IMG/VR virus record: IMGVR_UViG_3300024054_000269
Coordinates: 118,303-182,302 of that record
Reading direction: 5' to 3' (one strand)
Source: a virus
Length of the DNA stretch: 64,000 nt
Shown: in pieces, positions 13,325-63,242 of the stretch
How positions within the stretch are numbered: position 1 is the first letter of the stretch
Layout: each line of letters starts with the position of its first letter
Notes under the pieces: generated by a model
The model's input: the letters and a program-made list of their open reading frames with translations, nothing else
Databases searched by the model: none
What the model was told of the DNA's origin: nothing
Made by a program: the position numbers and the translations under genes

Positions 13325-13864
13325 ATGTCAAAGTACAAAATTATTTCGTACAAAATTGCCTTCGATTCGCCCAGGGGTCTACTTGATCAAACAACAAGTG
13401 ATCTGTGGTGTGATCCGGTTAGAGAGGGCGAATTTTCAGCACCAACAGGTCAGGTGATAGCAACTCTTCAGAAATATTTGTCTTTAAAATACGCAATAGA
13501 TATAGCATATAGAAATTTTTCAGATAGAATAACTGGACCATGGAGAGACGCAACAGTTAAGCATTGGTATGAACATGCTGAAGATGAAAGAAAGCATCAA
13601 TATAGTATAGCTATGAAGTTGGTCGCTCTTGGTAGTGACCCAGTTCCATCAGTTTATCAAATACCAAATTCCGGTCCAAATTTGGAGGTTATGTTCCAAT
13701 CATTAATGGATTTGGAATTAGAAGCAATCTCAATAGGAAGAGAACTTGTTGATTGTTCTGGGTCGAAAGTTGGATTCAGAGTCCTGATTGAAAACATGGT
13801 TCAAGATGACGGTCACCATCTAGACGATCTACGACGCATGTTTACAAAGGTTTCACAAATATGA
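13325..13864 (+). CDS. Ferritin-like di-iron four-helix protein
   Basis: 179 aa. Long helices consistent with a ferritin/bacterioferritin-type fold: EHAEDERKH (about 83-91, ExxH) and a second metal helix with ELEAISIG followed by QDDGHHLDDL. In the family this binds iron, or acts in oxidative or DNA protection (Dps-like). First of a three-gene overlapping cluster with a membrane metallopeptidase-like and a holin-like protein. Confidence 0.75.
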   Translation: MSKYKIISYKIAFDSPRGLLDQTTSDLWCDPVREGEFSAPTGQVIATLQKYLSLKYAIDIAYRNFSDRITGPWRDATVKHWYEHAEDERKHQYSIAMKLVALGSDPVPSVYQIPNSGPNLEVMFQSLMDLELEAISIGRELVDCSGSKVGFRVLIENMVQDDGHHLDDLRRMFTKVSQI

Positions 13865-15250: not shown

Positions 15251-15256
15251 ATTACA
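15251..15256 (-). promoter_or_regulatory. TGTAAT box with an SD-containing leader downstream
   Basis: The minus strand reads TGTAATTTCAATT, the same string that precedes leaderless starts at 57605 and 58208. Here the start codon is 42 bases on and has a GGAGG. This supports the box being a promoter element, not a translation signal. Confidence 0.6.
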
Positions 15257-16301
15257 TTAAGTTAAATAATTTAATGTTTTTCTTCAACTTTTGTTTGGCA
15301 GAAACCTCTAATTGTCTTATTCGTTCTCTTGATAAAGACTTTTCGTCTCCTATTTCCTTAAGAGTTTTTTCTTGGTTTCCATCAAGACCAAATCTACATC
15401 TAATTATGTATGCTTCGAATGGTGTAAGCTTGTTTAAAGCATTTCTTATTTCATCCTTTACCTTATCAACGTCAAGATCATCAAACGTGCTTGGATCAGA
15501 TTCGTAAGTCAGGGTGTCTAACATTGTCAAATCATTATCATTTTTGACTTGTGCATTAAGACTAAACATTAAGTATTCTCTATAGCCATCAGTCCGTTTG
15601 ACAATTTCATTTGGTATTCCAGTTTCGTATGATATTTCTTCGTCAGTTGGTTTTCTGCCAAGTTTTGTTGTTAATTTCAAACTAGCTCTATTCACTCTAG
15701 CAATATTATCAAACATATGAACCGGAAATCTGACCAACCTTGATTTGTCAGATAAATATCTTTTAACACCGTGTCTTATCCACCAAGTCGCATAAGTTGA
15801 AAATCTACATCCCATAGAAACATCGAATCTTTCGATAGCTCGCATAAGACCTAAATTACCTTCTTGTACCAAATCGGATTTATCACCAAAATGTTTTATT
15901 TTTCTGACAATTGATATAACGAGCCTCAAATTTTGGTTAAAAAATTGTTTACGTTTATCAGCTATTATTTTAGCATCTCTTTTTAAAATCCTTTTCCAAT
16001 TTTTCTTACCATTCCAGTTTGGCAAATCAGAAAGATCAGCGTTTGTTAACTCAAACAACCAACACCTACCGCTATCAGTAAATCTAATCATTTTCTCCAA
16101 GTTTTCAAACTCAAAATCATCAATGCGTTCAGAAAGTTGTTTGGTGAATTTATTTTTCATCGGGCTAGAAAATATATGATTAATCAATGATTTTTCTAAA
16201 TAATCAATTTCTGTTAATATTGTTTTTTCTTCTTCAGTTGATAACAACTTATGTTTTGATACATCAATGCAATAATAATCAAATGAATTTTTCTGTCTCA
16301 T
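15252..16301 (-). CDS. RNA polymerase sigma factor, sigma-70 family
   Basis: About 349 aa. Region 1.2-like N-terminus; region 2 with FFNQNLRLVISIVRK, DLVQEGNLGLMRAIERFD and CRFSTYATWWIRHGVKRYL; region 3 (RKPTDEEISYETGI); region 4 with the LKEIGDEKSLSRERIRQLE helix-turn-helix. It should redirect host core RNA polymerase. Start ATG 16301 overlaps the stop of a 45-aa gene (AAATGAG); a TTG 15 bases upstream is less likely. A second sigma-like protein is at 5630. Confidence 0.93.
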   Translation of the reverse strand: MRQKNSFDYYCIDVSKHKLLSTEEEKTILTEIDYLEKSLINHIFSSPMKNKFTKQLSERIDDFEFENLEKMIRFTDSGRCWLFELTNADLSDLPNWNGKKNWKRILKRDAKIIADKRKQFFNQNLRLVISIVRKIKHFGDKSDLVQEGNLGLMRAIERFDVSMGCRFSTYATWWIRHGVKRYLSDKSRLVRFPVHMFDNIARVNRASLKLTTKLGRKPTDEEISYETGIPNEIVKRTDGYREYLMFSLNAQVKNDNDLTMLDTLTYESDPSTFDDLDVDKVKDEIRNALNKLTPFEAYIIRCRFGLDGNQEKTLKEIGDEKSLSRERIRQLEVSAKQKLKKNIKLFNLM

Positions 16302-16435
16302 TTGATTATTAACCAAATTACATAGAATGATATCAAAATCGATATTACAACTGAAGATGATAAATCTTTTTCAGTCTGTTTTTTGAGCGCTAAGTTTGCT
16401 TCAAACAAAGCCGATTGTTTTTTCTTGTCTAACAT
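16298..16435 (-). CDS. 45-aa single-pass membrane protein
   Basis: Frame from ATG 16435: basic N-terminus (MLDKKKQSAL), then a hydrophobic helix (about 28-44, VVISILISFYVIWLIIK). The stop overlaps the sigma-70 ATG in ATGA fashion and the preceding UDG gene ends 19 bases upstream, so it fills the gap in the operon exactly. Function unknown. Confidence 0.6.
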   Translation of the reverse strand: MLDKKKQSALFEANLALKKQTEKDLSSSVVISILISFYVIWLIIK

Positions 16436-18575: not shown

Positions 18576-18849
18576 GCTTCACAGCTTTTTTGCGTCCACC
18601 ACCAAAAACAGACGTTTTTTGTTCTTGACGAACTCTTTTCAATTGTTCTAATTCAGCTTGGCACGATGCCAAGATTGCATTTGTTCTGTGCAGTTGTTCT
18701 GATACTTTCATGACAGTTAAACCATCAAGATTTCTTTTGTTCTTTTTAAGAGATTTCAAATATGACTTGACTGTAACAATCAACCCATTTGTTAAATCAA
18801 TAAATTCGGCATCAACTATCGGATTTCCTCTTACGACTGATCTAGGCAT
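18565..18849 (-). CDS. Helical basic hypothetical protein
   Basis: 94 aa, helical with a coiled-coil-like segment (about 55-75) and a basic tail (GGGRKKAVKLRG). Coupled to the NADAR gene by an 8-base overlap, so possibly a partner of it. Not recognised. Confidence 0.65.
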   Translation of the reverse strand: MPRSVVRGNPIVDAEFIDLTNGLIVTVKSYLKSLKKNKRNLDGLTVMKVSEQLHRTNAILASCQAELEQLKRVRQEQKTSVFGGGRKKAVKLRG

Positions 18850-19300
18850 TTTGTTTTTCCTCGCTTTGTCTTTCCTCGTTGAATTTTGAACGGACTTCCA
18901 TCAAAATCTTACCAAGCATGTTTTTCCCGCTTCCATCGCCACCATCACCCCAATAAGAATCATTTGAAGTATGTTCTACCAACGTTTCTTCACCAGTCTC
19001 AAGCAATTGCTGTTTCAAACTTTCATTTTGAGCAAACTTTTCATACACGATTTTCTTCATAATTTCATTTCGAATACGATCCCAACCAATTTGTGGTTTA
19101 AATTTCCAGGCCAATTTTTTTGCTTCGCCCGGAGTTTTAGTGTTTCTAATTAATTCTTCTTTATCTGTGCCATCGAACTTTTTTGCCTGAAACGCATGTT
19201 CTGAAGTCAGGTAAATTTTGCCATCAAATTCAAATTTGGCCGGGTAGAAATTTGACAAGAATCCGTATTCTGACCGAGTTCCATAAAATTTAATGGCCAT
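18842..19300 (-). CDS. NADAR/YbiA-like N-glycosidase-fold protein
   Basis: 152 aa. Near-complete NADAR domain: GFLSNFYPAKFEFDGKIY, SEHAFQAKKF, the A-W-K-F/GWDRIR central block, and SNDSYWGDGGDGSGKNMLGKILMEVR. The family acts on NAD/ADP-ribose-related compounds and some members remove ADP-ribose from DNA guanine; in phages it is discussed as counter-defence. An ADP-ribosyltransferase-like protein lies at 48269. Coupled to the downstream 94-aa gene. Confidence 0.88.
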   Translation of the reverse strand: MAIKFYGTRSEYGFLSNFYPAKFEFDGKIYLTSEHAFQAKKFDGTDKEELIRNTKTPGEAKKLAWKFKPQIGWDRIRNEIMKKIVYEKFAQNESLKQQLLETGEETLVEHTSNDSYWGDGGDGSGKNMLGKILMEVRSKFNEERQSEEKQNA

Positions 19301-22020: not shown

Positions 22021-22376
22021 TTCTTTTCTCCATTTGTGAATTTCCTTATCAGATCATTCACGCTGGTCTCATTGACAGGTTTAATAATCCAGCGTCCAAA
22101 CATCATTGAAAGAAATACTTGATTTTCTCTCGATGTTGAACCTTTTGATATAAATAGAACATTTTTTTCATACGTTGGAAATTTTTTCTTAATTTCAAAA
22201 TACAACCTTTGATTTGTGTCTATGTCGATTATGACAGCGCCATATTTATGTTTTTTAACTAATGGTAGCGCTTCATTTAAATTTCTAGCCGTATCAATTT
22301 TACTATATTTCTTTTTCAGAATTGTTATCAACACGTCTCTAGCGCTTGAGTCACTATCAACAATTAAAATATCCAT
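22017..22376 (-). CDS. Stand-alone response-regulator receiver domain
   Basis: 119 aa. Acidic pair VDSD (6-9), phosphoacceptor Asp in VIIDIDTN (about 49-52), Ser in FISKG and Lys in WIIKPV complete the receiver signature; no output domain. Could intercept host two-component phosphotransfer or act as an adaptor. Overlaps both neighbours (VanW stop TAATG, MazG-like ATGA). Confidence 0.8.
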   Translation of the reverse strand: MDILIVDSDSSARDVLITILKKKYSKIDTARNLNEALPLVKKHKYGAVIIDIDTNQRLYFEIKKKFPTYEKNVLFISKGSTSRENQVFLSMMFGRWIIKPVNETSVNDLIRKFTNGEKK

Positions 22377-23365
22377 TATTCAATTTCCCAAGGTGGTGGT
22401 CCATCCCAACCTAAACCGACTTCCCAAATCTCGTTTACTGGTTCATAATTGCTAACAGAAGTGATTTTATTATTTTTACCATCAGCCCATTTTTGGGTGA
22501 AAATTGACGTTACGATTAGCCCATCTGAGCCTGATTGAATTTTCTTTTTATATTTACCGAGAAATTTGCCGGTCTTTCTATAAGTTTTTACATACAAACC
22601 ATTAGTTGACATTCCAAACATGTATGAAACAGTTGGATGATTGCCAGACCCAAAAACTGATATTTTTAGAATTGCTTCTTCATCATCAGACAAATATGAC
22701 TTAATGGTGACAGGAAAATCATATTGATTTTTTATTTTTAGATCAACTGCTTGGCAATTTTTATCTTCATGCCCATTACATTCTTTTGGAAAATTAACTG
22801 TGGCATCAAGGCCCTTTTCTATATATTTAGATGGCCTTGAATGCGATCTTCTCTCAACTATTTCAAGACCAGCAAATCTTGATACAGCGTATAAAGTTGA
22901 TGAAACCTGACAAACACCTCCACCAATTCCAGACGTCATTTCACCAAGGAAAATTAATGGGGCTTCCAGGTAGCCGTTTTCTGTCGTTCTTGGTCCAACA
23001 TATTTATTGAAACTAAATATTTCATTGGGTTTTATAGTAATGTCTATATTTGTTCTCTTAACATTCAAGTATCTGTTTTTTTCTTTCCCAAAACTTTTAA
23101 GCTTAGTTGAGTAAGTCGAAATAACCTTGTCTTGGTCTTCTCTTGGTTTCTCTTGCCTTTTTTGTTCGGTTTTACCACCTGAATCACCTATTGATGAAGA
23201 AATTGAAGGAGAGTCAAAAGAGATGGCTTTATCATGTGTCGTACATGATACTACATATACAACAATAGGTAACCCTTGAGGAATCATGTTTAAGAATTTA
23301 GTCATAGAAATTACCGCGAATGGTACACTACGTGTGTTAGTTGATGGGTTGTATATTGGATTCAT
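22376..23365 (-). CDS. VanW family protein with N-terminal signal-like segment
   Basis: 329 aa. Family core: IKPNEIFSFNKYVGPRT, GGGVCQVSSTLYAVSRFAGLEIVERRSHS, then the PKECNGHEDKNC and beta-rich end. VanW proteins are cell-envelope proteins of uncertain function found in vancomycin-resistance loci and many Gram-positives. Residues about 30-45 (GLPIVVYVVSC) may be a signal or lipoprotein-like segment. If translation starts at the internal ATG near 23287, that ATG overlaps the divergent ATG at 23286 in one CATG. Confidence 0.85.
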   Translation of the reverse strand: MNPIYNPSTNTRSVPFAVISMTKFLNMIPQGLPIVVYVVSCTTHDKAISFDSPSISSSIGDSGGKTEQKRQEKPREDQDKVISTYSTKLKSFGKEKNRYLNVKRTNIDITIKPNEIFSFNKYVGPRTTENGYLEAPLIFLGEMTSGIGGGVCQVSSTLYAVSRFAGLEIVERRSHSRPSKYIEKGLDATVNFPKECNGHEDKNCQAVDLKIKNQYDFPVTIKSYLSDDEEAILKISVFGSGNHPTVSYMFGMSTNGLYVKTYRKTGKFLGKYKKKIQSGSDGLIVTSIFTQKWADGKNNKITSVSNYEPVNEIWEVGLGWDGPPPWEIE

Positions 23366-27647: not shown

Positions 27648-27967
27648 GAATCAATCACTTCTTTTGTACGCTGCTCTAGAACATGTTCTACACAGGCGGT
27701 GATGTTAATGTCGTTGCCTGATGTCACATTATCGTGTATTGCCTTACATAAATCAATTAATATTAAATTTATAAATGCTTGCATATTAATTGATTTTGAT
27801 ATGCGACCAACTCCATCACAAACTTCACATTTAATATACAAATACATTACATTTTGATATGAATTCCTTATTTGACATTTTCCGCTCCCACCGCAATTCG
27901 GGCAACGTTCAGAAATCAAAAATTCAGTATCGCTCGAAACATACTCTCTGTCGCTGTAAATTTTCAT
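27644..27967 (-). CDS. DnaJ-type zinc-finger-like protein with EVIDS tag
   Basis: 107 aa. CPNCGGSGKC (about 22-31) and CEVCDGVGR (about 47-55) are two CxxCxGxG-type knuckles like one DnaJ zinc site, without a J domain; then a helical half ending KEVIDS. Could be a chaperone-like or RNA-binding adaptor. ATG overlaps the previous stop in TGATG. Confidence 0.7.
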   Translation of the reverse strand: MKIYSDREYVSSDTEFLISERCPNCGGSGKCQIRNSYQNVMYLYIKCEVCDGVGRISKSINMQAFINLILIDLCKAIHDNVTSGNDINITACVEHVLEQRTKEVIDS

Positions 27968-28374
27968 CAGTCTGAATTTACATACGTAAGAATTCCGATT
28001 TTACCTTTCGGTAACAAATTGTTGTAAGAATGAATAATTTTAACCGGCACCCAGGCTTCATATAGATCTGTATTATGATCTTCTAATAAGTCTAATGTTG
28101 CCAAATAATCGTTATCTAAAGGTTCAAAATACATAGGTAAATCCTGTGATGAAGTTAAAAATTTTTCAACTAGATCACGATTGTATGGTTCTGCACGATC
28201 AATTAGAACGTCATGTTCCGGATGCCAAAAAATTGGCAAAGGAACGTAATATCCTTCTGCCTTTGGGTGGCAACAACATGTGCCACCAACTTGGTTTGAA
28301 TACCAAACCCCAGTTTTTGCTAAAACAATAATCCCATACAAATTTTCTAATGACCACAATTCAATTATGTTCAT
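27967..28374 (-). CDS. DUF6210-like protein
   Basis: 135 aa from ATG 28374. GIIVLAKTGVWYSNQVGGTCC then EGYYVPLP resembles the DUF6210 family (recalled; unknown function, found near toxin/immunity loci). A TTG 6 bases upstream is less likely since the TGTAAT box lies 8 bases before ATG 28374. Confidence 0.55.
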   Translation of the reverse strand: MNIIELWSLENLYGIIVLAKTGVWYSNQVGGTCCCHPKAEGYYVPLPIFWHPEHDVLIDRAEPYNRDLVEKFLTSSQDLPMYFEPLDNDYLATLDLLEDHNTDLYEAWVPVKIIHSYNNLLPKGKIGILTYVNSD

Positions 28375-28427: not shown

Positions 28428-28847
28428 TTATTTAACTGAATGAAGGCTTCTGAATGGAGGCATGGTTTGAATTTCAATGTTTTGTAGGTATTCTGACGTT
28501 ATTTCGTTTCCATGCATCCATTCAACACTATCACCACCATCGTTTTTATGCCAGACTGACACATCAATATTCTTTAACATTTTCATGACATTTTTTAAGG
28601 TCATTTTGGTTTTTAATGCTTGTTTAATAGCATCGTATAAACCTTCTTTCTCAAAGTCGACCAAAATATAAGAATCCGGACCAGATCTGGCTAAATAATA
28701 ATCCGGGTAAACATCCTTTGGAAATCCAACAATACTCGGATCAATTCCGGCAAATGGGTCTTTTTGAAGAAGTCTGTCCGTAATATCAATTACGTCCCCA
28801 GATGTAATTGTTGATGATATCTTCGCAGCAATACGATGAAAATCCAT
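28428..28847 (-). CDS. Hypothetical protein with IAAKIS N-terminus
   Basis: 139 aa. N-terminus MDFHRIAAKISSTIT shares the IAxxI(A/S) pattern with 23589, 44245, 46867 and 60535. Then an acidic alpha/beta body with no known motif. ATTACG box 6 bases before the ATG. Confidence 0.65.
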   Translation of the reverse strand: MDFHRIAAKISSTITSGDVIDITDRLLQKDPFAGIDPSIVGFPKDVYPDYYLARSGPDSYILVDFEKEGLYDAIKQALKTKMTLKNVMKMLKNIDVSVWHKNDGGDSVEWMHGNEITSEYLQNIEIQTMPPFRSLHSVK

Positions 28848-28859
28848 AATTTCCGTAAT
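28845..28859 (-). promoter_or_regulatory. ATTACG box 6 nt before ATG
   Basis: Minus-strand ATTACG (28859-28854), 6 bases, ATG (28847); divergent version of the box. Confidence 0.3.
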
Positions 28860-28890
28860 TAGTTATGAATAAAAGACTATAATTGCCCAA

Positions 28891-29346
28891 CTATCCTTCA
28901 ACTATTAGCTTTACCATATCCATGTCACATTTGTCTTTGTCGTGACCCTTAGATACTCTTGAGTGTCTACCTGGGATTGGTTTGTTGCATCTCGGGCACA
29001 ACGTGTCTTTCTTTTTTTCAGGTGAATCATATTTTGGAATGTGATATGATATTACGTATTGATAATCATACGGGTGAAGTTGTTTTCTTTGTTTATTTTT
29101 AAATTCATATTTCTCAATTCTTGAGAAATATGAATTGTACAAAGAATTGCTCTGAAAACCAAGTTTTAGTTTTTGTTTCTGTTGTCTTTGTTTTTCATCT
29201 CGTCTCAAACATTCGTTTATACAGTCTTGGACATGAACCGCGTTTTCACGCAGGGCTTCGCTTAAAGCATTGATAGTTACATATGGCTTATGCCAATCTC
29301 TTAGTTTAGAAGTAATTCTATTAAAAATGTCAGGTCGGTAGCGCAT
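28891..29346 (-). CDS. Basic protein with CxxC and LIVEG tag
   Basis: 151 aa. Lys/Arg/Gln-rich middle (RRDEKQRQQKQKLK), HTH-like N-terminus (TINALSEALRENAVHVQDCI), then CPRCNKPI and a KCDMD before the final MVKLIVEG. Probably nucleic-acid-binding. It is the last gene of the 29930-28891 operon; its ATG directly follows the upstream stop (TAAATG). Confidence 0.6.
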   Translation of the reverse strand: MRYRPDIFNRITSKLRDWHKPYVTINALSEALRENAVHVQDCINECLRRDEKQRQQKQKLKLGFQSNSLYNSYFSRIEKYEFKNKQRKQLHPYDYQYVISYHIPKYDSPEKKKDTLCPRCNKPIPGRHSRVSKGHDKDKCDMDMVKLIVEG

Positions 29347-31269: not shown

Positions 31270-31457
31270 GGTTTAGTCCTATACGGACCGTCATCTTTGA
31301 TTTTCTCATCAGTCAAGACTTCAACAGAACAGGTTAAGTCTTTTCCATAATTCGGAAATTCCGGATTACAAACTCGACTTTTATCGATATTGAAATTTTT
31401 TACTACATAGTTCCTGACTATTCTACATAACTCTTCTTGATTGAAAACGTACTTCAT
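31266..31457 (-). CDS. Small hypothetical protein
   Basis: 63 aa, helical N-terminus then short strands with two Cys; overlaps both neighbours by 4 bases in the ATP-grasp operon. Not recognised. Confidence 0.6.
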   Translation of the reverse strand: MKYVFNQEELCRIVRNYVVKNFNIDKSRVCNPEFPNYGKDLTCSVEVLTDEKIKDDGPYRTKP

Positions 31458-32266
31458 ATTGACTCCCTTAAATTGTTGTATAAATTGGCATATAAAACTT
31501 CCGGATTATTTTCTGACAAACCTGACATCTGTCCATCGTTTAATTCTATTACGATCCATTCACCAGATTCAGTTTGGGCCACGTCAATGGTGAAAAAATT
31601 GATATTTGATTTGATTGAGTTTATGGCTTTGGCCATAAACTCAATCGGAACTTCTTGAGATGATGGAATTTTCCCAAGTTTTTCTTTTATTTCCTCTACA
31701 TGTGAAGACCAATAATAACCGCTACTTATAACGCGGCCGTTTAATATGAAAAATCTGAATTCTTTAGTTATTGGTAAATCTTGCAATCCGATCATGTAAG
31801 TATGTAACGGAATATATTGTCTTATTATTATGTCTTGTTCACCAATCAATGAATCTGCACACAATAAACTGTGAATTTCTATGGCTCTTTTCTTATCTTC
31901 AGCAAACATGTGGCTCTTCCATAGAAATTTCTTTGAATTAGTCTCGCCTTTAAGCACAAAAGGACCATCTTCTGGCAAATCTTCAAGTCTAGTCCAAGTT
32001 TTTGGTGTGAGACCGTCCAAATCAACTGCCCAATTTTTGCAATCTGCAACATATTTGTGCTGTTTGTAAGTATTGATTAATTTTGCGTTAACAGACTTAA
32101 TATCATCCTCTAATTCTTTATAAAATGGTAATACACTGTATCTACCAATTACTAAATCGTCAGATTTAATTTGCATCCTAGATGAATAACATTCAAAATA
32201 CTCATTCGCCGAATTGGATTCGTATTTCCAGTCACCTAAGTCCCTGTATAGTATGACAGGATTCAT
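31454..32266 (-). CDS. ATP-grasp protein, R2K-like clade
   Basis: 270 aa. ATP-grasp ligase core: GPFVLKGETNSKKFLWKS (substrate/ATP loop), IIIRQYIPL, KEFRFFILNGRVISSGYYW, and the metal-binding FTIDVAQTESGEWIVIELNDGQ. The RxFIL...G.VISSGYYW pattern is that of the R2K family found in phage and bacterial peptide/RNA-modification loci (DUF4343). Ligates a carboxylate to an amine; substrate unknown. First gene of a four-gene operon; its ATG overlaps the divergent gene's ATG (CATG). Confidence 0.85.
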   Translation of the reverse strand: MNPVILYRDLGDWKYESNSANEYFECYSSRMQIKSDDLVIGRYSVLPFYKELEDDIKSVNAKLINTYKQHKYVADCKNWAVDLDGLTPKTWTRLEDLPEDGPFVLKGETNSKKFLWKSHMFAEDKKRAIEIHSLLCADSLIGEQDIIIRQYIPLHTYMIGLQDLPITKEFRFFILNGRVISSGYYWSSHVEEIKEKLGKIPSSQEVPIEFMAKAINSIKSNINFFTIDVAQTESGEWIVIELNDGQMSGLSENNPEVLYANLYNNLRESI

Positions 32267-32589: not shown

Positions 32590-32811
32590 TCATTTTGTTC
32601 TGTGTGTTATTAAACCGTGTGTCAAATCATAGGGTGAAACTGCAACTCTAACTTTATCACCTGGAAGAACTCTTATGTGATTTCTTCTCATGCGACCTGA
32701 AAGTTGGGCTCGAACGTGTGAGCTTGATTGTGTTAATTTGATGTTATATTGACCACCACCCATGGCTTCTTCAACAACACCATCAAGTTCTATTAAGTCG
32801 CCTTTGCTCAT
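32590..32811 (-). CDS. infA: Translation initiation factor IF-1 homologue
   Basis: 73 aa, full length for IF-1. OB-fold pattern: GVVEEAMGGGQYNIKL, RAQLSGRMRRNHIRVLPGDKVRVAVSPYDLTHGLITHR. IF-1 binds the 30S A site and sets start-codon selection and initiation kinetics. The fold core and the GDKV and SPYDL elements are intact, so a functional or decoy IF-1 is likely. Coupled to the upstream gene at 33116. Notable given the many apparently leaderless genes in this genome. Confidence 0.92.
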   Translation of the reverse strand: MSKGDLIELDGVVEEAMGGGQYNIKLTQSSSHVRAQLSGRMRRNHIRVLPGDKVRVAVSPYDLTHGLITHRTK

Positions 32812-33116
32812 CCGTATAACACCTCAAGTGTTCTAACCTGTGCTATTAAATCTTCTTCTGACGTAGCAGTCAAGAGAAACACGTTAACTAATTTTTGTTG
32901 CATGTTTGACCGCAAAAATGGATTTGTTAATATTGCTTCGTACAACAATAAATTGTTTTGTTCCGCATAATCAATAGCCACATATGTTTGTGCTTTCCTT
33001 ATCGTGGTTGATTGACTAGAACATTTCGCATATGAATATGATTCAACAATCGATTCCGGAAGACGTTTCAATATGCGGCATACTTCTTCAGGTGCTGCTA
33101 ATGGAAATTTATTCAT
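32808..33116 (-). CDS. Hypothetical helical protein upstream of IF-1
   Basis: 102 aa, all-helical, not recognised. Ends 4 bases into the IF-1 start. Its coupling suggests both are made together. Confidence 0.6.
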   Translation of the reverse strand: MNKFPLAAPEEVCRILKRLPESIVESYSYAKCSSQSTTIRKAQTYVAIDYAEQNNLLLYEAILTNPFLRSNMQQKLVNVFLLTATSEEDLIAQVRTLEVLYG

Positions 33117-33348
33117 TATTAATCGTACTCGTACTCATGCTGGTTTCTAAATCATAACTTGATTGTGAATTTTGCCATGCAAATTTATCTGGCATAAATC
33201 TGACTGTTACAATCCCTGATGTTTTATTTGTAGAAACATATTGAACATAATCTGGTGCAAAATAGTCAGTTCTAACGTCTTTCATTGCATGCCCCGGTTT
33301 TAACATCTTAATTCGTTTCCAAGGTTTACACTCTTCTGAGGTTACCAA
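33109..33348 (-). CDS. Hypothetical protein
   Basis: 79 aa, small beta protein (YVSTNKTSGIVTVRFMPDKF), Ser/Thr-rich end. Overlaps neighbours by 8 and 7 bases. Not recognised. Confidence 0.55.
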   Translation of the reverse strand: MVTSEECKPWKRIKMLKPGHAMKDVRTDYFAPDYVQYVSTNKTSGIVTVRFMPDKFAWQNSQSSYDLETSMSTSTINNE

Positions 33349-35608: not shown

Positions 35609-35875
35609 TTATGGTTCTGCAAAAGCAGGACATTTATAACCACAATATTTACATCCGACTTCGCGGTTGTCTTCGTATGGATCAAAATGTTTTTCATACG
35701 CATGACCACAACCACGGCGAGCGCATTCAACAAATTGGTTGTGGCTGTGATCTAGTTTTCTTTTTCCGTATCCAAGACCGCACAATGCTTCATACAATTT
35801 CTGCTGATCAAATTGATCGCCGTTCCTATAAGCATCGCAGAATTCATATAAAACTAATTCTTCATGAAATTCCAT
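35609..35875 (-). CDS. Small Cys-rich protein
   Basis: 88 aa. Helical N-terminus, CARRGCGH and CKYCGYKC form a zinc site. Its ATG 35875 overlaps the RRM gene stop (TGATG). Confidence 0.6.
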   Translation of the reverse strand: MEFHEELVLYEFCDAYRNGDQFDQQKLYEALCGLGYGKRKLDHSHNQFVECARRGCGHAYEKHFDPYEDNREVGCKYCGYKCPAFAEP

Positions 35876-36285
35876 CACCAGTCACTCCCATAGCCGTCAT
35901 CGTGGTTGCGACGTCGTTTGTTCTTCTTTTTAAATTTTCTTGGCTCAGATTCACTACTGGTCGGTGGCGGTGAAAATTGACTCTGTCCAAATGACTGTCT
36001 ATTATTTTGAAAATTTGGTCTAGGTCCTGATTTATCTCTCTCTTTTGCTTCACTAACTCTCATAGACCTTCCGTCAATTTCTCTTCCATCTAATGCCAAT
36101 ATAGCTGATTGTGCCTCTGCGTCAGAACCAAGCGTAACGAACGCAAAACCTTTTGACCTTCCAGTTTCACGATCAATTATTACGTCAATTCTTTTTACAG
36201 TTCTTCCATCTTCGGAAAAAACCGATCTCAACGTGAGCTCGGTCGTGTTATATGATAAATTGCCTACGTATACTCTATCACCCAT
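35875..36285 (-). CDS. RRM-domain RNA-binding protein
   Basis: 136 aa. One RNA recognition motif (about 4-80): RNP2 VYVGNL (5-10), RNP1 KGFAFVTL (about 45-52), with the GREIDGRSMRVSEA end, as in bacterial/cyanobacterial Rbp proteins. The tail is Ser/Pro-rich and basic (RKFKKKNKRRRN). Binds single-stranded RNA; phage examples are rare. Lies 11 bases downstream of the 194-aa gene and overlaps the next one. Confidence 0.93.
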   Translation of the reverse strand: MGDRVYVGNLSYNTTELTLRSVFSEDGRTVKRIDVIIDRETGRSKGFAFVTLGSDAEAQSAILALDGREIDGRSMRVSEAKERDKSGPRPNFQNNRQSFGQSQFSPPPTSSESEPRKFKKKNKRRRNHDDGYGSDW

Positions 36286-38068: not shown

Positions 38069-38084
38069 TGTAATGTATATTATG
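38069..38084 (+). promoter_or_regulatory. TGTAAT box 7 nt before ATG
   Basis: TGTAAT 38069-38074, GTATATT, ATG 38082. It argues that ATG 38082 and not ATG 38073 (inside the box) is the start. Confidence 0.65.
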
Positions 38085-38444
38085 CTAGTTGAGGGGTTCC
38101 AAAAATTATGGGGTAAAATAAATAACCCAAGTTCAGGTTCCCCAGATGTCTCAATTGGTGATATCTTAACGTTGATGGCAAAAATACTATCTGAGTATGA
38201 TAACAGAAACTTAGAGCCTATCGATAAATGGGTGTTAGCTTATTTAAATATTACAAACGGTTCTGCCAAAATGGATATCGTATTTTCTTGGCAGGACGCT
38301 GCAATTGGTCCAACTTATGGTATGCCATTTGATGAATTAGAAAAAAGAAGACATGAAGAATCAAAAAATATTAATAAAGCTGTGAAGAAATTAATTAATT
38401 CAAAATTAATAAAACTTGAAAGCGAAAAACTTTGTCTGGTGTAG
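38082..38444 (+). CDS. Hypothetical helical protein
   Basis: 120 aa, mainly helical, possible wHTH-like middle (SIGDILTLMAKILSEY ... VLAYLNITNGSAKMD), last helices Lys-rich. Overlaps the next gene by 13 bases. Not recognised. Confidence 0.6.
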   Translation: MLVEGFQKLWGKINNPSSGSPDVSIGDILTLMAKILSEYDNRNLEPIDKWVLAYLNITNGSAKMDIVFSWQDAAIGPTYGMPFDELEKRRHEESKNINKAVKKLINSKLIKLESEKLCLV

Positions 38445-38779: not shown

Positions 38780-39370
38780 ATGGAAATTTATATAAGCACG
38801 GATGTTGAGACAGATGGGCCGATACCTGGCCCAAATTCAATGCTAAGCCTCGGGGCAGCAGCATTTAAAAACTATGAACTTATAGGAACATTTTCGGTCA
38901 ATCTGAGCCCTTTACCCGGGGCGTCGCCAGATCCAAACACAGAAGCTTGGTGGAAACAACAACCAAAAGAAATATACAATGCATGCAGGACTGATCAAAA
39001 GCCGCCGGAAGAGGCAATGAAACAGTATGTAGATTGGGTGTTGTCTTTTATTAATAGGCGAGACGGAACTAAACCGGTATTTGTAGGTTATCCAGCAACT
39101 TTTGATTTTCTTTTCGTTTATTGGTATCTTATCAAATTTGTCGGTTCATCCCCATTCAGTTTTTCAGCTCTAGACATTAAGTCTTATGCTATGGCTATGT
39201 TAGGTTCCGAGTACGGAAAATCAACAAAGAAGAACATGCCAAAAAGATGGTTCAATAATTTACCTCCACATACACACAAAGCCGTTGATGACGCAATCGA
39301 ACAAGGTTATCTGTTTATGAACATACTTAAAGATAATAAAATGGCGCAGCGCGTGCAGGGCACCGGCTAA
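38780..39370 (+). CDS. DnaQ-like (DEDDh) 3'-5' exonuclease, C-terminus altered
   Basis: 196 aa. ExoI DVETDG (8-13), Exo[17 protein letters not shown], Exo[14 protein letters not shown]: a DEDDh exonuclease of the RNase T/DnaQ fold. The last 9 residues after NILKDNK come from the GC-rich insert that begins near 39345, so the natural C-terminus was replaced, leaving the catalytic core intact. Confidence 0.87.
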
Positions 39371-40534: not shown

Positions 40535-40550
40535 TGTATTGTCAATAATG
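40535..40550 (+). promoter_or_regulatory. TGTATT box 7 nt before ATG
   Basis: TGTATT 40535-40540, GTCAATA, ATG 40548. It favours ATG 40548 over an upstream TTG at 40539. Confidence 0.55.
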
Positions 40551-40754
40551 GAAATTGAAGACACTATAGGGAAACCAAGACCACATAAAGATGTGCTAGA
40601 TGCATTGAAATGTATTGAACAAGAAATGATGTTAAATCCTCTTGCAATGTCTAAGAAAAGCGGGCCATTGCTTATTCATTATTCAGTAATCAGAGATTGT
40701 TTAAATGAACTTCTTGTCCTACGAGAATCAATTAAACGTGCGGAGATAAAATGA
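40548..40754 (+). CDS. Small helical hypothetical protein
   Basis: 68 aa, helical, not recognised. ATGA-coupled to the next gene. Confidence 0.6.
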   Translation: MEIEDTIGKPRPHKDVLDALKCIEQEMMLNPLAMSKKSGPLLIHYSVIRDCLNELLVLRESIKRAEIK

Positions 40755-43479: not shown

Positions 43480-43496
43480 TGTAAAATTTTTGTATG
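43480..43496 (+). promoter_or_regulatory. TGTAAA box 8 nt before ATG
   Basis: TGTAAA 43480-43485, 8 bases, ATG 43494. Confidence 0.5.
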
Positions 43497-44222
43497 TCAT
43501 ATTTAAAGTATGATCACAAGATTGTAAATTCACCAAAAGTTATCAACGTATCAGATATGTCAATTGATGACGACGTAATCCAACCTTCTGAAATAAGGAA
43601 GATTGCAAGAGAAATATTTGAGTTAGACTTTGTACAAGACCAAATAAAAAAGGTTGGTGAGGTTATAACACATGATAACATTGAAATTTATTATAAATTT
43701 GAAATCATACCGATAGTTGTAAAATCAAAATTTAAACCAATAGTCAAAACCGTATTTATGTTAAATAATGAATTAACAATCATTCTAAAAGAAAAACGAA
43801 TAGTTAATATCGAAGATTTGATAAAAGTAAACCATTTGTTTGACGATGCCGCCGATGGTGATGGTGATGAATTAATAGATGATGGTAAAAATTACAACTT
43901 CGACAAATTATACGAAAATAACCCGTCAATGAATTATGACAATATCAAAGAAATAAAAATGAATTCCGAGAAACAATTTTACAAAATGGTCTTACTACAT
44001 ATGGATCGTATGTATAATATAAATGACTTCTTGGAAAAATTAAATCAATCAATTGATGATATATTTAATTCAGCTGACTATGCAGTTGATCTTGATAACG
44101 AAATTCAAAAAGCTATAATTGATAAAATTATGCCAACTTTCAATAAATTTAGTTGGGTCCCGCACGAAATACTCCATAGATGTGTTGATATGCTTACAAC
44201 TTCTGATGTAATTGATTCTTAA
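43494..44222 (+). CDS. Hypothetical protein with DVIDS tag
   Basis: 242 aa. Strand-rich centre (IEIYYKFEIIPIVVKSKFKP), an acidic DDAADGDGDELIDDG segment (about 122-136) which could bind Ca, helical end finishing LTTSDVIDS, identical in its last nine residues to 34078-34548. Function unknown. Confidence 0.65.
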   Translation: MSYLKYDHKIVNSPKVINVSDMSIDDDVIQPSEIRKIAREIFELDFVQDQIKKVGEVITHDNIEIYYKFEIIPIVVKSKFKPIVKTVFMLNNELTIILKEKRIVNIEDLIKVNHLFDDAADGDGDELIDDGKNYNFDKLYENNPSMNYDNIKEIKMNSEKQFYKMVLLHMDRMYNINDFLEKLNQSIDDIFNSADYAVDLDNEIQKAIIDKIMPTFNKFSWVPHEILHRCVDMLTTSDVIDS

Positions 44223-51390: not shown

Positions 51391-51406
51391 TGTATATAGA
51401 AACATG
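51391..51406 (+). promoter_or_regulatory. TGTATA box 7 nt before ruvB ATG
   Basis: TGTATA 51391-51396, TAGAAAC, ATG 51404. The 200-base stretch upstream holds no other gene. Confidence 0.65.
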
Positions 51407-52351
51407 AATGAAGTTGAGTTTGACAAAGCTCTCCGACCTAAGATGTTGGTTGATTTCACCGGCCAGCCGAAATTGGTTGAGAGTCTAAAAATTTCAGTCG
51501 CGGCGGCAAAACACCGTGGTGACCCACTTGATCATATCTTGTGCGTGGGTCAACCGGGCCTCGGAAAGACAAGTTTGGCAAACATTTTGGCTAACGAGAT
51601 GGGATCAAAGATTATCGTTGTAAACGCGCCATCTATTAAGACCAAAGGTGAACTTGCCGGCGTTCTTACCAGACTCGAAGAAGGTGATATTCTGTTCATC
51701 GACGAAATTCACAGGCTTAGCCCGGTCGTCGAAGAAATTTTGTATCCAGTCATGGAAGATTTCAAACTCGAAGTCATTGTTGGCAAAGGTGTTAACGCAG
51801 AAGCCGTAGTCATGAAACTTCCGAGTTTCACTTTGATTGGTGCAACCACTTTGGCTGGTATGTTGACCAAGCCACTCTTGGACAGGTTTGGAGAAATCTG
51901 CGAATTCGAGCCATATTCAGCCGAAGATTTGTCTTCAATCGTGCTGCGTTCAGCCAAACTTATGGGTTTAGAATTTGATTCAGTTGCGGCAAACGTCTTG
52001 GCACACAGGTCGAAGGGCACCCCAAGAATCGCAAATCGGATCTTGCGTCGAGTTCGCGACCACGTTCAGTTTAACAAATCGAACTTCGTCGATGTAAACG
52101 CGGTCAAGGCTACCTGTGACCGTTTGGGCATTGACCATCTTGGTCTCGATAAGACAAGCCGTAAATTGCTCTCGGTGTTAGTCGAGAAAGCCAGACCGAT
52201 TGGTCTTGATTTGCTTGCATCCACACTCGGCGAATCAAAGGCGACCATCGAAGAAATCTGTGAGCCATATTTGATTCGAAACGGATTTATTGAACGCACT
52301 ACCCAAGGTCGAATTGCGACCAAGAAAGCCAAAGATTACGTCAAAGTGTAA
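51404..52351 (+). CDS. ruvB: Holliday junction DNA helicase RuvB
   Basis: 315 aa. Full RuvB: Walker A GQPGLGKT (49-56), Walker B ILFIDEIHRL (96-105), sensor GATT, LLDRFG arginine-finger region, and the C-terminal winged helix (LDLLASTLGESKATIEEICEPYLI). It drives branch migration of Holliday junctions. No RuvA or RuvC is in the window. Moderately GC-rich codon use compared with neighbours. Leaderless-type start. Confidence 0.96.
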   Translation: MNEVEFDKALRPKMLVDFTGQPKLVESLKISVAAAKHRGDPLDHILCVGQPGLGKTSLANILANEMGSKIIVVNAPSIKTKGELAGVLTRLEEGDILFIDEIHRLSPVVEEILYPVMEDFKLEVIVGKGVNAEAVVMKLPSFTLIGATTLAGMLTKPLLDRFGEICEFEPYSAEDLSSIVLRSAKLMGLEFDSVAANVLAHRSKGTPRIANRILRRVRDHVQFNKSNFVDVNAVKATCDRLGIDHLGLDKTSRKLLSVLVEKARPIGLDLLASTLGESKATIEEICEPYLIRNGFIERTTQGRIATKKAKDYVKV

Positions 52352-57607: not shown

Positions 57608-57847
57608 AGCACGAACAGCACACGAGCATTTCTTACAGATCAAAATGGAATGATGTGTGACGAACTTACCAGAATCTTGGCGCATGAAGTTGAAGAATTG
57701 GAAAAACAGGTCGAAAAATTGAAAACCGCGTTGAAAGAAGCTATAGAATTTGCAGACGAAGGTTGGTCCTATGCAGATGATTATTTTAAGAAAAAATGGG
57801 GTTATGAAGAAACCAAAGAAAAACTGAAAATAACTCTTAATACTTGA
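57605..57847 (+). CDS. Coiled-coil protein
   Basis: 80 aa. Heptad region about 24-50 (EELEKQVEKLKTALKEAIEF), aromatic-rich end. Overlaps the convergent gene by 11 bases. Function unknown. Confidence 0.65.
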   Translation: MSTNSTRAFLTDQNGMMCDELTRILAHEVEELEKQVEKLKTALKEAIEFADEGWSYADDYFKKKWGYEETKEKLKITLNT

Positions 57848-58208
57848 GGAATTCACTAAGTAATATCATACTCTTACCACACCAAGGACACTTTGGCGCG
57901 AGTGACTTCATAGGTATTGATTTAGAGTAATTCGGGTTCTTTACGGCCGGCACCAAAGCTGATTCCAAGCCTATCCATACAATTTGGTCTTTTTTTGAAA
58001 TTTCAACCCCAATTCGTTTGCTGTGTCTTTCACGACAAGTTTTTGTACACGTAAACGGCCACAAATTAAACATATGAATTAGATAATGTTCTCTGCACCA
58101 AATCTTGTAAATCTTTTTGCCTCTCCCAAAAGATGTGCCTTTGTGTTCATAAAACCAACCTTTTAAATAAGCATCACTTTCACATATTGCACATTTTTGG
58201 TTTTTCAT
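57837..58208 (-). CDS. Multi-zinc-finger protein
   Basis: 123 aa. CAIC, WCREHY, CTKTC and CPWCGK give two or three zinc sites (treble-clef/ribbon mix), basic middle. Function unknown. Confidence 0.65.
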   Translation of the reverse strand: MKNQKCAICESDAYLKGWFYEHKGTSFGRGKKIYKIWCREHYLIHMFNLWPFTCTKTCRERHSKRIGVEISKKDQIVWIGLESALVPAVKNPNYSKSIPMKSLAPKCPWCGKSMILLSEFLKY

Positions 58209-59110: not shown

Positions 59111-59126
59111 TGTAATTTACATCATG
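59111..59126 (+). promoter_or_regulatory. TGTAAT box 7 nt before ATG
   Basis: TGTAAT 59111-59116, TTACATC, ATG 59124; fixes this start over a longer in-frame one at 59076. Confidence 0.65.
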
Positions 59127-59294
59127 ATTGACATACAAGGGTATATTAAATGTCCGTGTACAACACAGGTTTTCAACATGGGTGAACCAGCCCCTGACTG
59201 TCATGCATGTCATGGAACAGGTCACTGTAAAAAAGAAAAACAAAGTGAGGCAGATGCGCCTTTTAAAGAATGGCCTGACAAGAACGATCAATAG
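59124..59294 (+). CDS. Small zinc-knuckle protein (CPC / CHACHGTGHC)
   Basis: 56 aa. CPC (10-12) and CHACHGTGHC (about 27-36) are one DnaJ-like zinc site. Function unknown. Confidence 0.65.
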   Translation: MIDIQGYIKCPCTTQVFNMGEPAPDCHACHGTGHCKKEKQSEADAPFKEWPDKNDQ

Positions 59295-61188: not shown

Positions 61189-61204
61189 TGTAAAGTTCGG
61201 GATG
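61189..61204 (+). promoter_or_regulatory. TGTAAA box 7 nt before ATG
   Basis: TGTAAA 61189-61194, GTTCGGG, ATG 61202. Confidence 0.55.
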
Positions 61205-61420
61205 AAGCTTACGCCGGAAAGATTAAAAGAACTTAATGACAAATCCATTGTTGCACTATCAACTTTGAGAGATTGCTCTCTCAAAAGAGAAAGCATTGAA
61301 GAATCTTTGAAAAACGCGGTAAACCGAGAAAAAGAAGCCATTAGAAAATGGAATGAAGCCGTTTCAAATTTGAAGAAAGCGTTTGATGAAGACGCTTGCA
61401 TTGAAGTTATTGACTCATGA
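61202..61420 (+). CDS. Helical protein with EVIDS tag
   Basis: 72 aa, one long helix (about 5-60), end ACIEVIDS. Overlaps the convergent gene by 14 bases. Function unknown. Confidence 0.65.
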   Translation: MKLTPERLKELNDKSIVALSTLRDCSLKRESIEESLKNAVNREKEAIRKWNEAVSNLKKAFDEDACIEVIDS

Positions 61421-62480: not shown

Positions 62481-62881
62481 CTTTTTCAAATTATAAAGTG
62501 GGCGACGAAAAATTGATTAAAGAAATTGCCTTGGTGTTAAAAAGGGCGCCTTTTCTTACATTGTCTAAAGAACGAGACAGAGCGGTTGAAGAAAATGTAA
62601 TGTTACAATTTTACGGATATGGTGAAGATTCTGATTATTTGACTTATGGACCGCAAGGACATTATAAATTATCGGCAAAACGGGCGAATAACGGAACGTT
62701 GATGTGGGTTGCTGTTGCTACGTGGTATAAAGATGAAGAACCGGACGAAAGAGGGTTGCTTTATTGCATAAAACGAGCTTTGAAAGAACTTGATAGGATT
62801 GGTGTTGAAAGTGGTGTTGAACTTAGCCGTGGGACGTTAACGGAAGAAGAACATAAAGCGCTGGAAATTATTGATGCCTAA
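62477..62881 (+). CDS. Tagged protein (EIIDA), paralogue 1
   Basis: 134 aa, TTG start in TTGA overlap. N-terminal helix, strands, W-containing core (TLMWVAVATWYKDEEPDERGLLYCIKR), end GTLTEEEHKALEIIDA. The last 32 bases of the tag region are identical to the next gene. Confidence 0.7.
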   Translation: MTFSNYKVGDEKLIKEIALVLKRAPFLTLSKERDRAVEENVMLQFYGYGEDSDYLTYGPQGHYKLSAKRANNGTLMWVAVATWYKDEEPDERGLLYCIKRALKELDRIGVESGVELSRGTLTEEEHKALEIIDA

Positions 62882-63242
62882 TTGGAAAGAAGTTAAATGG
62901 TCTGATTTGAGACGAAATGAATTTGAAAATCAACTGAAGTTTATTCTCAAAACGAAAATATCGCCATCGGCGACGTTGATGCACAAAAATTTAAAAATTC
63001 ACAGACACGATGCTTCCTACATGTCGAATGTGAGGGACTGTAGAGATAAAATTGTTTTAAGTGTTCATTTAGATAACTGGTTTGTTGTTGCTAAATGGAT
63101 GGATTACGAAACGCCGAATTTAGACGGATTGTTGTATTTGATTGAACGTTTGTTTACGTCAGATGCGCCGTCATCTGTTACGGATTGTGATGGAACGTTG
63201 TCAGCGGAAGAACATAAAGCGCTGGAAATTATTGATGCGTGA
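62874..63242 (+). CDS. Tagged protein (EIIDA), paralogue 2
   Basis: 122 aa from ATG 62874. Core NWFVVAKWMDYETPNLDGLLYLIER aligns with paralogue 1; end GTLSAEEHKALEIIDA. Identical tag DNA (63207-63238 vs 62846-62877), although the bodies have diverged. Confidence 0.7.
   Translation: MPNWKEVKWSDLRRNEFENQLKFILKTKISPSATLMHKNLKIHRHDASYMSNVRDCRDKIVLSVHLDNWFVVAKWMDYETPNLDGLLYLIERLFTSDAPSSVTDCDGTLSAEEHKALEIIDA

Follow-up and report, generated by a model that had tools for sequence, protein, structure and literature searches.

Genes for the translation initiation factors IF1 and IF3 have been described in huge phages (Al-Shayeb et al. 2020, PMC7162821), and further phage IF1 genes have been reported since 2020 (PMC12363816). 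IF-1 homologues are also encoded by Lak phages, Bacteroides phages DAC16-23, Sinorhizobium phage Phosso and Jug phages; those of Lak, DAC and Phosso share 36-43% identity with the IF-1 described here, and the Jug phages, whose core 'translation initiation factor 1A' is named in the Jug paper, are likened to it by description only. Just as the phage-borne factor of the huge phages was proposed to redirect host translation, a redirection of host ribosomes is commonly ascribed to phages that carry a single initiation factor, and tests of this idea are scarce. In the huge phages the factor occurs among other phage translation proteins (PMC7162821), whereas here IF-1 stands without matches to IF-3, S21 or S1. 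A phage IF-1 as such is already known, and what is new in the present case is a further member with Myxococcota affinity. The locus also touches on leaderless translation, of which a TANNNT box about 12 bp before the start is a mark in bacteria (Zheng et al. 2011, PMC3160421). In vitro, translation of leaderless messages is enhanced by IF1 and IF2, which are also required for canonical initiation, and IF3 discriminates (PMC9031893, a 2022 review).

The window, i.e. the whole stretch of 64,000 nucleotides that was analysed, makes up the final 64 kb of a 182,302-bp IMG/VR virus record (labelled G000 in comparisons with other phages). A minus-strand gene run ends with infA, at which the following features were noted (window coordinates):

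32590..32811, minus strand: infA, 73-aa IF-1 of the GGGQY/THGLI type (TIGR00008, PF01176, fold, residue alignment)
32808..32811, minus strand: ATGA overlap of the upstream cistron stop and the infA start, possible translational coupling (sequence read)
32820..32825, minus strand: GAGGTG Shine-Dalgarno (SD) of infA, 8 nt before the ATG (sequence read)
32808..33116, minus strand: cistron directly before infA, encoding 102 aa and not confidently assigned to a family
33122..33128, minus strand: GTACGAT, leaderless-type -10 box of the upstream cistron, whose ATG follows after 5 nt (PWM score 8.2 at -11)

The sequence-only reading had proposed that a complete phage-encoded IF-1 homologue is present, which was borne out by family models and fold, with chance excluded. 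The protein encoded by the ORF at 32590-32811 (-), MSKGDLIELDGVVEEAMGGGQYNIKLTQSSSHVRAQLSGRMRRNHIRVLPGDKVRVAVSPYDLTHGLITHRTK, scored 74.9 bits against TIGR00008 (infA equivalog cutoff 61.15) and 66.1 bits against PF01176 (cutoff 30.2), being the sole PF01176 match across the 182,302-bp record, and a PDB sequence search returned IF-1 chains only. The AlphaFold2 model (mean pLDDT 88.4) has the five-stranded barrel of an OB-fold (strands 7-18, 21-26, 32-37, 53-58 and 65-71) with a short helix at 39-43 in the beta3-beta4 loop. Its top Foldseek matches, among them 1hr0_W and E. coli 30S complexes, were IF-1 without exception, and TM values against IF-1 crystal and cryo-EM structures, 30S-bound ones included, were 0.84-0.89.

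Given the GAGGTG 8 nt before its ATG and the ATGA overlap, infA is SD-led, not leaderless, and probably coupled to the cistron before it. A box such as GTACGAT is expected by chance ahead of a single ATG with a probability of about 0.7%, and it could drive the upstream cistron plus infA. Because the cistron before infA has this leaderless-type box, co-expression of infA with the leaderless class is possible. No match to IF-3, S21 or S1 was obtained in the record, which contains one tRNA gene (tRNA-Gly), and a wider phage translation kit was ruled out on these grounds; in the Rfam search the tRNA alone matched. IF-3 and S21 are also missing from the majority of the further IF-1 phages that were checked, though both occur in G096 and S21 in G100. 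A conserved infA neighbourhood was likewise ruled out, the flanks varying between phages.

Several other genes were observed in the window. The minus-strand run of infA includes an RRM-domain RNA-binding protein (35875-36285, -), and an Rv2179c-like 3'-5' exoribonuclease is encoded at 38780-39370 (+), homologues of which are encoded about 3 kb or less from infA in six further IF-1 phages (L068, L069, L070, L081, L085 and L127). A NADAR-domain protein is encoded at 18842-19300 (-, 132 bits), a type of protein that may act in counter-defence against ADP-ribosylation or NAD-based systems. A VanW-like protein (22376-23365, -, 127.7 bits) is unusual phage cargo, and there are also a full RuvB-like helicase with N, lid and C domains (51404-52351, +) and a ferritin-like, possibly Dps-like, protein (13325-13864, +).

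The residues by which IF-1 contacts the ribosome were taken from Clostridioides difficile IF1 (Cd-IF1, PMC10913371) and a review (PMC4611024). In Cd-IF1 K39 contacts G530, R41 and R46 contact A1492/A1493, and a C-terminal Arg (E. coli R69, Cd R70) is essential (PMC10913371, PMC4611024); R64 and R66 correspond to basic residues on the ribosome-binding face in other IF-1s (PMC10913371). Aligned to Cd K39, R41, R46, Y60 and R70, the phage IF-1 has R, R, R, Y and R, and thus carries the basic decoding-centre contacts and the C-terminal Arg (R, R, R, R). At R64 and R66 it has H and L (H65/L67 in phage numbering), and two basic face residues are gone. By these H and L residues and its phage operon context it falls outside the canonical TRGRI-type IF-1s of the adk-infA-rpsM operon. 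It agrees with the stand-alone THG-type IF-1s of Myxococcota in having H-G-[LFM] for R-G-R, a GG(G) loop and a location outside the ribosomal operon. The sequence-only reading had named loss of ribosome-contact residues as a sign against its proposal; the decoding-centre contacts turned out to be kept, and the loss of the two basic face residues is common to apparently sole cellular IF-1s, on which ground loss of function via missing contacts was ruled out. Given that many Myxococcota share such changes in what is apparently their only IF-1, the R64/R66 changes look like a host-lineage trait rather than function loss.

The proteins closest to the phage IF-1 are stand-alone chromosomal IF-1s of Polyangiaceae (Myxococcota), with 70-75% identity, and in the tree the two are sisters (support 99/83). 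The bacterial relatives are thus nearer than the phage ones (58-70%), the closest of the latter being L061 (70%), L062/G001 (63%) and L063/G002 and L064/G003 (58% each); no actinobacterial phage names were found among the listed IF-1 matches in phages. A second, more divergent IF-1-like ORF (37% identity) was noted in the G003 record at G003:C1:230067-230270. The Polyangiaceae proteins (e.g. L129, L131 and L144) share GGGQY, GRMRR, SPYD(L)(T/S)HGLI and a one-residue loop insertion with the phage protein, and unlike phage infA their genes are chromosomal, of high GC and in no phage operon. The GC content of the phage is 36% versus roughly 70% in Polyangiaceae, the putative host assignment coming from IF-1 similarity alone. 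When the window IF-1 and L061-L064 were forced into one clade the constraint stood (p-AU 0.26, 73 columns), and other phages branch, with weak support, directly outside the Polyangia plus window clade.

Since the genome search patterns held the THG motif, the list of bacterial relatives leans to the THG type, and H together with L, F or M was found in 69/69 distinct bacterial sequences of this THG-biased set. A second look, free of the THG bias, covered 75 Myxococcota genomes (completeness filter 95), 71 of which had a TIGR00008 match. The best 30 matches fetched were canonical (R-G-R or K-G-R) and located mostly beside S13 and S11, often with adk. In 20 genomes with a single weaker match, that match was a divergent IF-1 in whose vicinity neither S13 nor S11 nor Adk was detected; these stand-alone IF-1s had H-G-F (n = 9), R-G-L (n = 1) or K/R-G-R (n = 10), i.e. 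H at the first position in 9/20 and F or L at the second, with R66 absent, in 10/20. In addition, two Polyangia genomes (L226 and L227) in which the ribosomal operon was read retain, unlike the phage, a decayed second infA between adk and rpsM, with an intact THG-type gene elsewhere; no ribosomal genes were found around the intact gene in the one of the two genomes in which its neighbourhood was read. This arrangement represents a possible displacement of an essential gene. From the single-match genomes and the decayed operon infA it appears that a cell can rely on the THG type as its only IF-1, subject to MAG incompleteness.

The leaderless-type genes were examined with counts at fixed offsets and with a PWM built from relatives of high GC, which together replaced a de novo EM motif search of positions -50 to -1 of first genes that had returned low-complexity AT motifs only. 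Genes were called with a home-made caller and the starts are predicted. In the record, GTAnnnT-N5/6-ATG was found at 20/171 called starts as compared to 44/6602 other ATGs (p = 3×10−17), and an SD was present in 3/20 of these box genes versus 60/151 of the remaining genes, as expected for TANNNT-led leaderless genes with the box at -12/-11. TAnnnT at -12/-11 occurred 15 times versus 5.3 expected, and a PWM derived from G001 and G002 only (59-66% GC) gave 11 sites at these offsets versus 1.2 expected. SD-like tetramers were present at 57% of operon-internal genes (21% in the control stretch) and at 28% of first genes (14%) of the record. The many putative leaderless genes of the sequence-only reading thus correspond to a real signal of smaller extent than implied, and the word 'rich' should be taken with care given that about 12% of the called genes bear the strict box. 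The leaderless-type genes of the window, besides the cistron upstream of infA, and a sigma factor considered below are:

15252..16316, minus strand: sigma-70 family factor with regions 2, 3 and 4, candidate reader of the GTAnnnT promoter
27967..28374, minus strand: leaderless-type gene, GTAATTT box at -12 (PWM)
31454..32266, minus strand: ATP-grasp R2K_3 protein, GTATATT leaderless-type box at -11
38082..38444, plus strand: leaderless-type gene, box at -11 (PWM)
40548..40754, plus strand: leaderless-type gene, GTATTGT box at -11 (PWM)
43494..44222, plus strand: leaderless-type gene, GTAAAAT box at -12 (PWM)
57837..58208, minus strand: leaderless-type gene, box at -11, weak gene score (PWM)
59124..59294, plus strand: leaderless-type gene, box at -11, weak gene score (PWM)
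61202..61420, plus strand: leaderless-type gene, box at -11 (PWM)

The same box was found in two related IF-1 phages. GTAnnnT-N5/6-ATG was present at 35/267 called starts versus 20/5053 other ATGs in G002 and at 9/135 versus 22/4723 in G001, and the counts of TAnnnT at -12/-11 were 19 versus 2.2 expected and 7 versus 0.9 expected, respectively. In a plain count of G002 there were 23 GTAnnnT-N5-ATG and 32 GTAnnnT-N6-ATG, and few at other spacings. Two orthologous gene pairs of G000 and G002, recognised by protein comparison, both had a TAnnnT box at -12 or -11 (record coordinates 28708-29001 and 96091-96447, and 65108-65485 and 62629-63015, respectively). Like the leaderless genes of Zheng et al. 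(PMC3160421), these genes have a -10 box about 12 nt ahead of the start codon; unlike the TANNNT described there, the phage box is preceded by G in 44/44 motif training sites of G001 and G002, and no -35 element was visible upstream of the boxes in these two phages. The pattern (T/G)GTAnnnT-N5/6-ATG with its invariant G is common to phages of 36, 59 and 66% GC (G001/G002 and window 27967-61420). The structural regions of G000 and G002 show extended synteny, mostly with 30-80% protein identity, despite GC contents of 36% versus 66%, which represents a large base-composition shift inside one phage lineage. The phage's own sigma factor (15252-16316) may read the GTAnnnT promoter. The box signal is strongest in G002, in which a search for sigma region 2 gave no match, and host polymerase with a host sigma factor is for that reason at least as likely there.

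If the phage IF-1 shifted host initiation towards the phage's own leaderless messages, as the sequence-only reading had suggested, one might point to the reality of the leaderless-type genes in the record and two other IF-1 phages, to the leaderless-type box on the cistron just before infA, and to the stimulation of leaderless translation by IF1 in vitro (PMC9031893). Against this, the IF-1 phage G003 was at background (3/394 starts versus 117/14767 other ATGs), and TAnnnT counts pooled over G003 and ten other IF-1 phages, the ten sampled at 80 kb each with small numbers, were 24 versus 19.3 expected (p = 0.17). Furthermore, the contact residues are the same as in the ordinary cellular IF-1s of the nearest relatives, infA itself is SD-led, and IF1 is also required for canonical initiation with IF3 as the discriminating factor (PMC9031893), for which the record has no match. 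Two Polyangia MAGs showed a slight leaderless signal of their own (6 versus 1.2 expected among 132 genes), so that Polyangia, if hosts, need no phage IF-1 for leaderless genes. The causal link from IF-1 to the leaderless genes is therefore not supported and such a bias seems quite improbable, while a circumstantial link, the leaderless box of the cistron directly before infA, remains.

A repurposing of the OB-fold away from initiation, as an RNA chaperone, an antiterminator or an A-site shield against a defence that cuts 16S rRNA or arrests ribosomes, is rather unlikely. It would fit the two changed face residues, the negative searches for IF-3, S21 and S1 and the single tRNA gene, and IF1 does have RNA-chaperone activity; the changed residues, however, also occur in apparently sole cellular IF-1s, and the decoding-centre residues are conserved. 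That infA was merely taken up from a host and contributes little function itself is very improbable. Its differing neighbourhoods in other phages would imply that it moves often, but identities to the Polyangiaceae gene of 67/92/26% at the three codon positions show a protein that is kept while silent sites are saturated, indicating strong purifying selection, and together with full AT-adaptation (GC3 25% versus 82%) they suggest long residence in the phage under such selection. An unlikely alternative of two forms is either that the lineage has its own leaderless regulon transcribed from the GTAnnnT promoter, with infA behind one such cistron so that IF-1 rises with and favours leaderless messages, or that Polyangia acquired their stand-alone IF-1 from a phage of the window lineage, and that it displaced the now-decayed ribosomal-operon infA. 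The weakly supported phage branches just outside the Polyangia plus window clade are compatible with a phage-to-Polyangia origin.

We consider it likely, judging from family, fold, residues, tree and purifying selection, that the product of infA is a functional bacterial IF-1, belongs to the stand-alone type of Myxococcota (Polyangia) and supplements the host's, the leaderless genes being a separate lineage trait. The phage IF-1 would bind the 30S A site over A1492/A1493 and G530 as host IF-1 does, and would add to or stand in for host IF-1 during infection, such that initiation on all phage messages, SD-led and leaderless, could keep pace in a late or stressed cell. A GTAnnnT promoter without a visible -35, 5-6 nt ahead of the start codon, would give rise to the leaderless genes, and a selective action of IF-1 on their messages would be unnecessary; IF-1 phages without the leaderless signature, such as G003, do exist. 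The R64 to H and R66 to L changes, the GC gap to Polyangiaceae and the leaderless box before infA are points against this reading.

The G-preceded, -35-less leaderless promoter of three phages and the direction of IF-1 transfer with Polyangia are the matters most worth further work. A phage-to-Polyangia transfer, if true, would mean that an essential translation factor of a cell had been replaced by a viral one. In the present case a single initiation factor can be linked with one group of bacteria, and comparison across IF-1 phages gives no support to the obvious connection with leaderless messages. If the phage IF-1 were selective, or if the Polyangia IF-1 were phage-derived, this would be a case of a virus altering an essential part of translation start.
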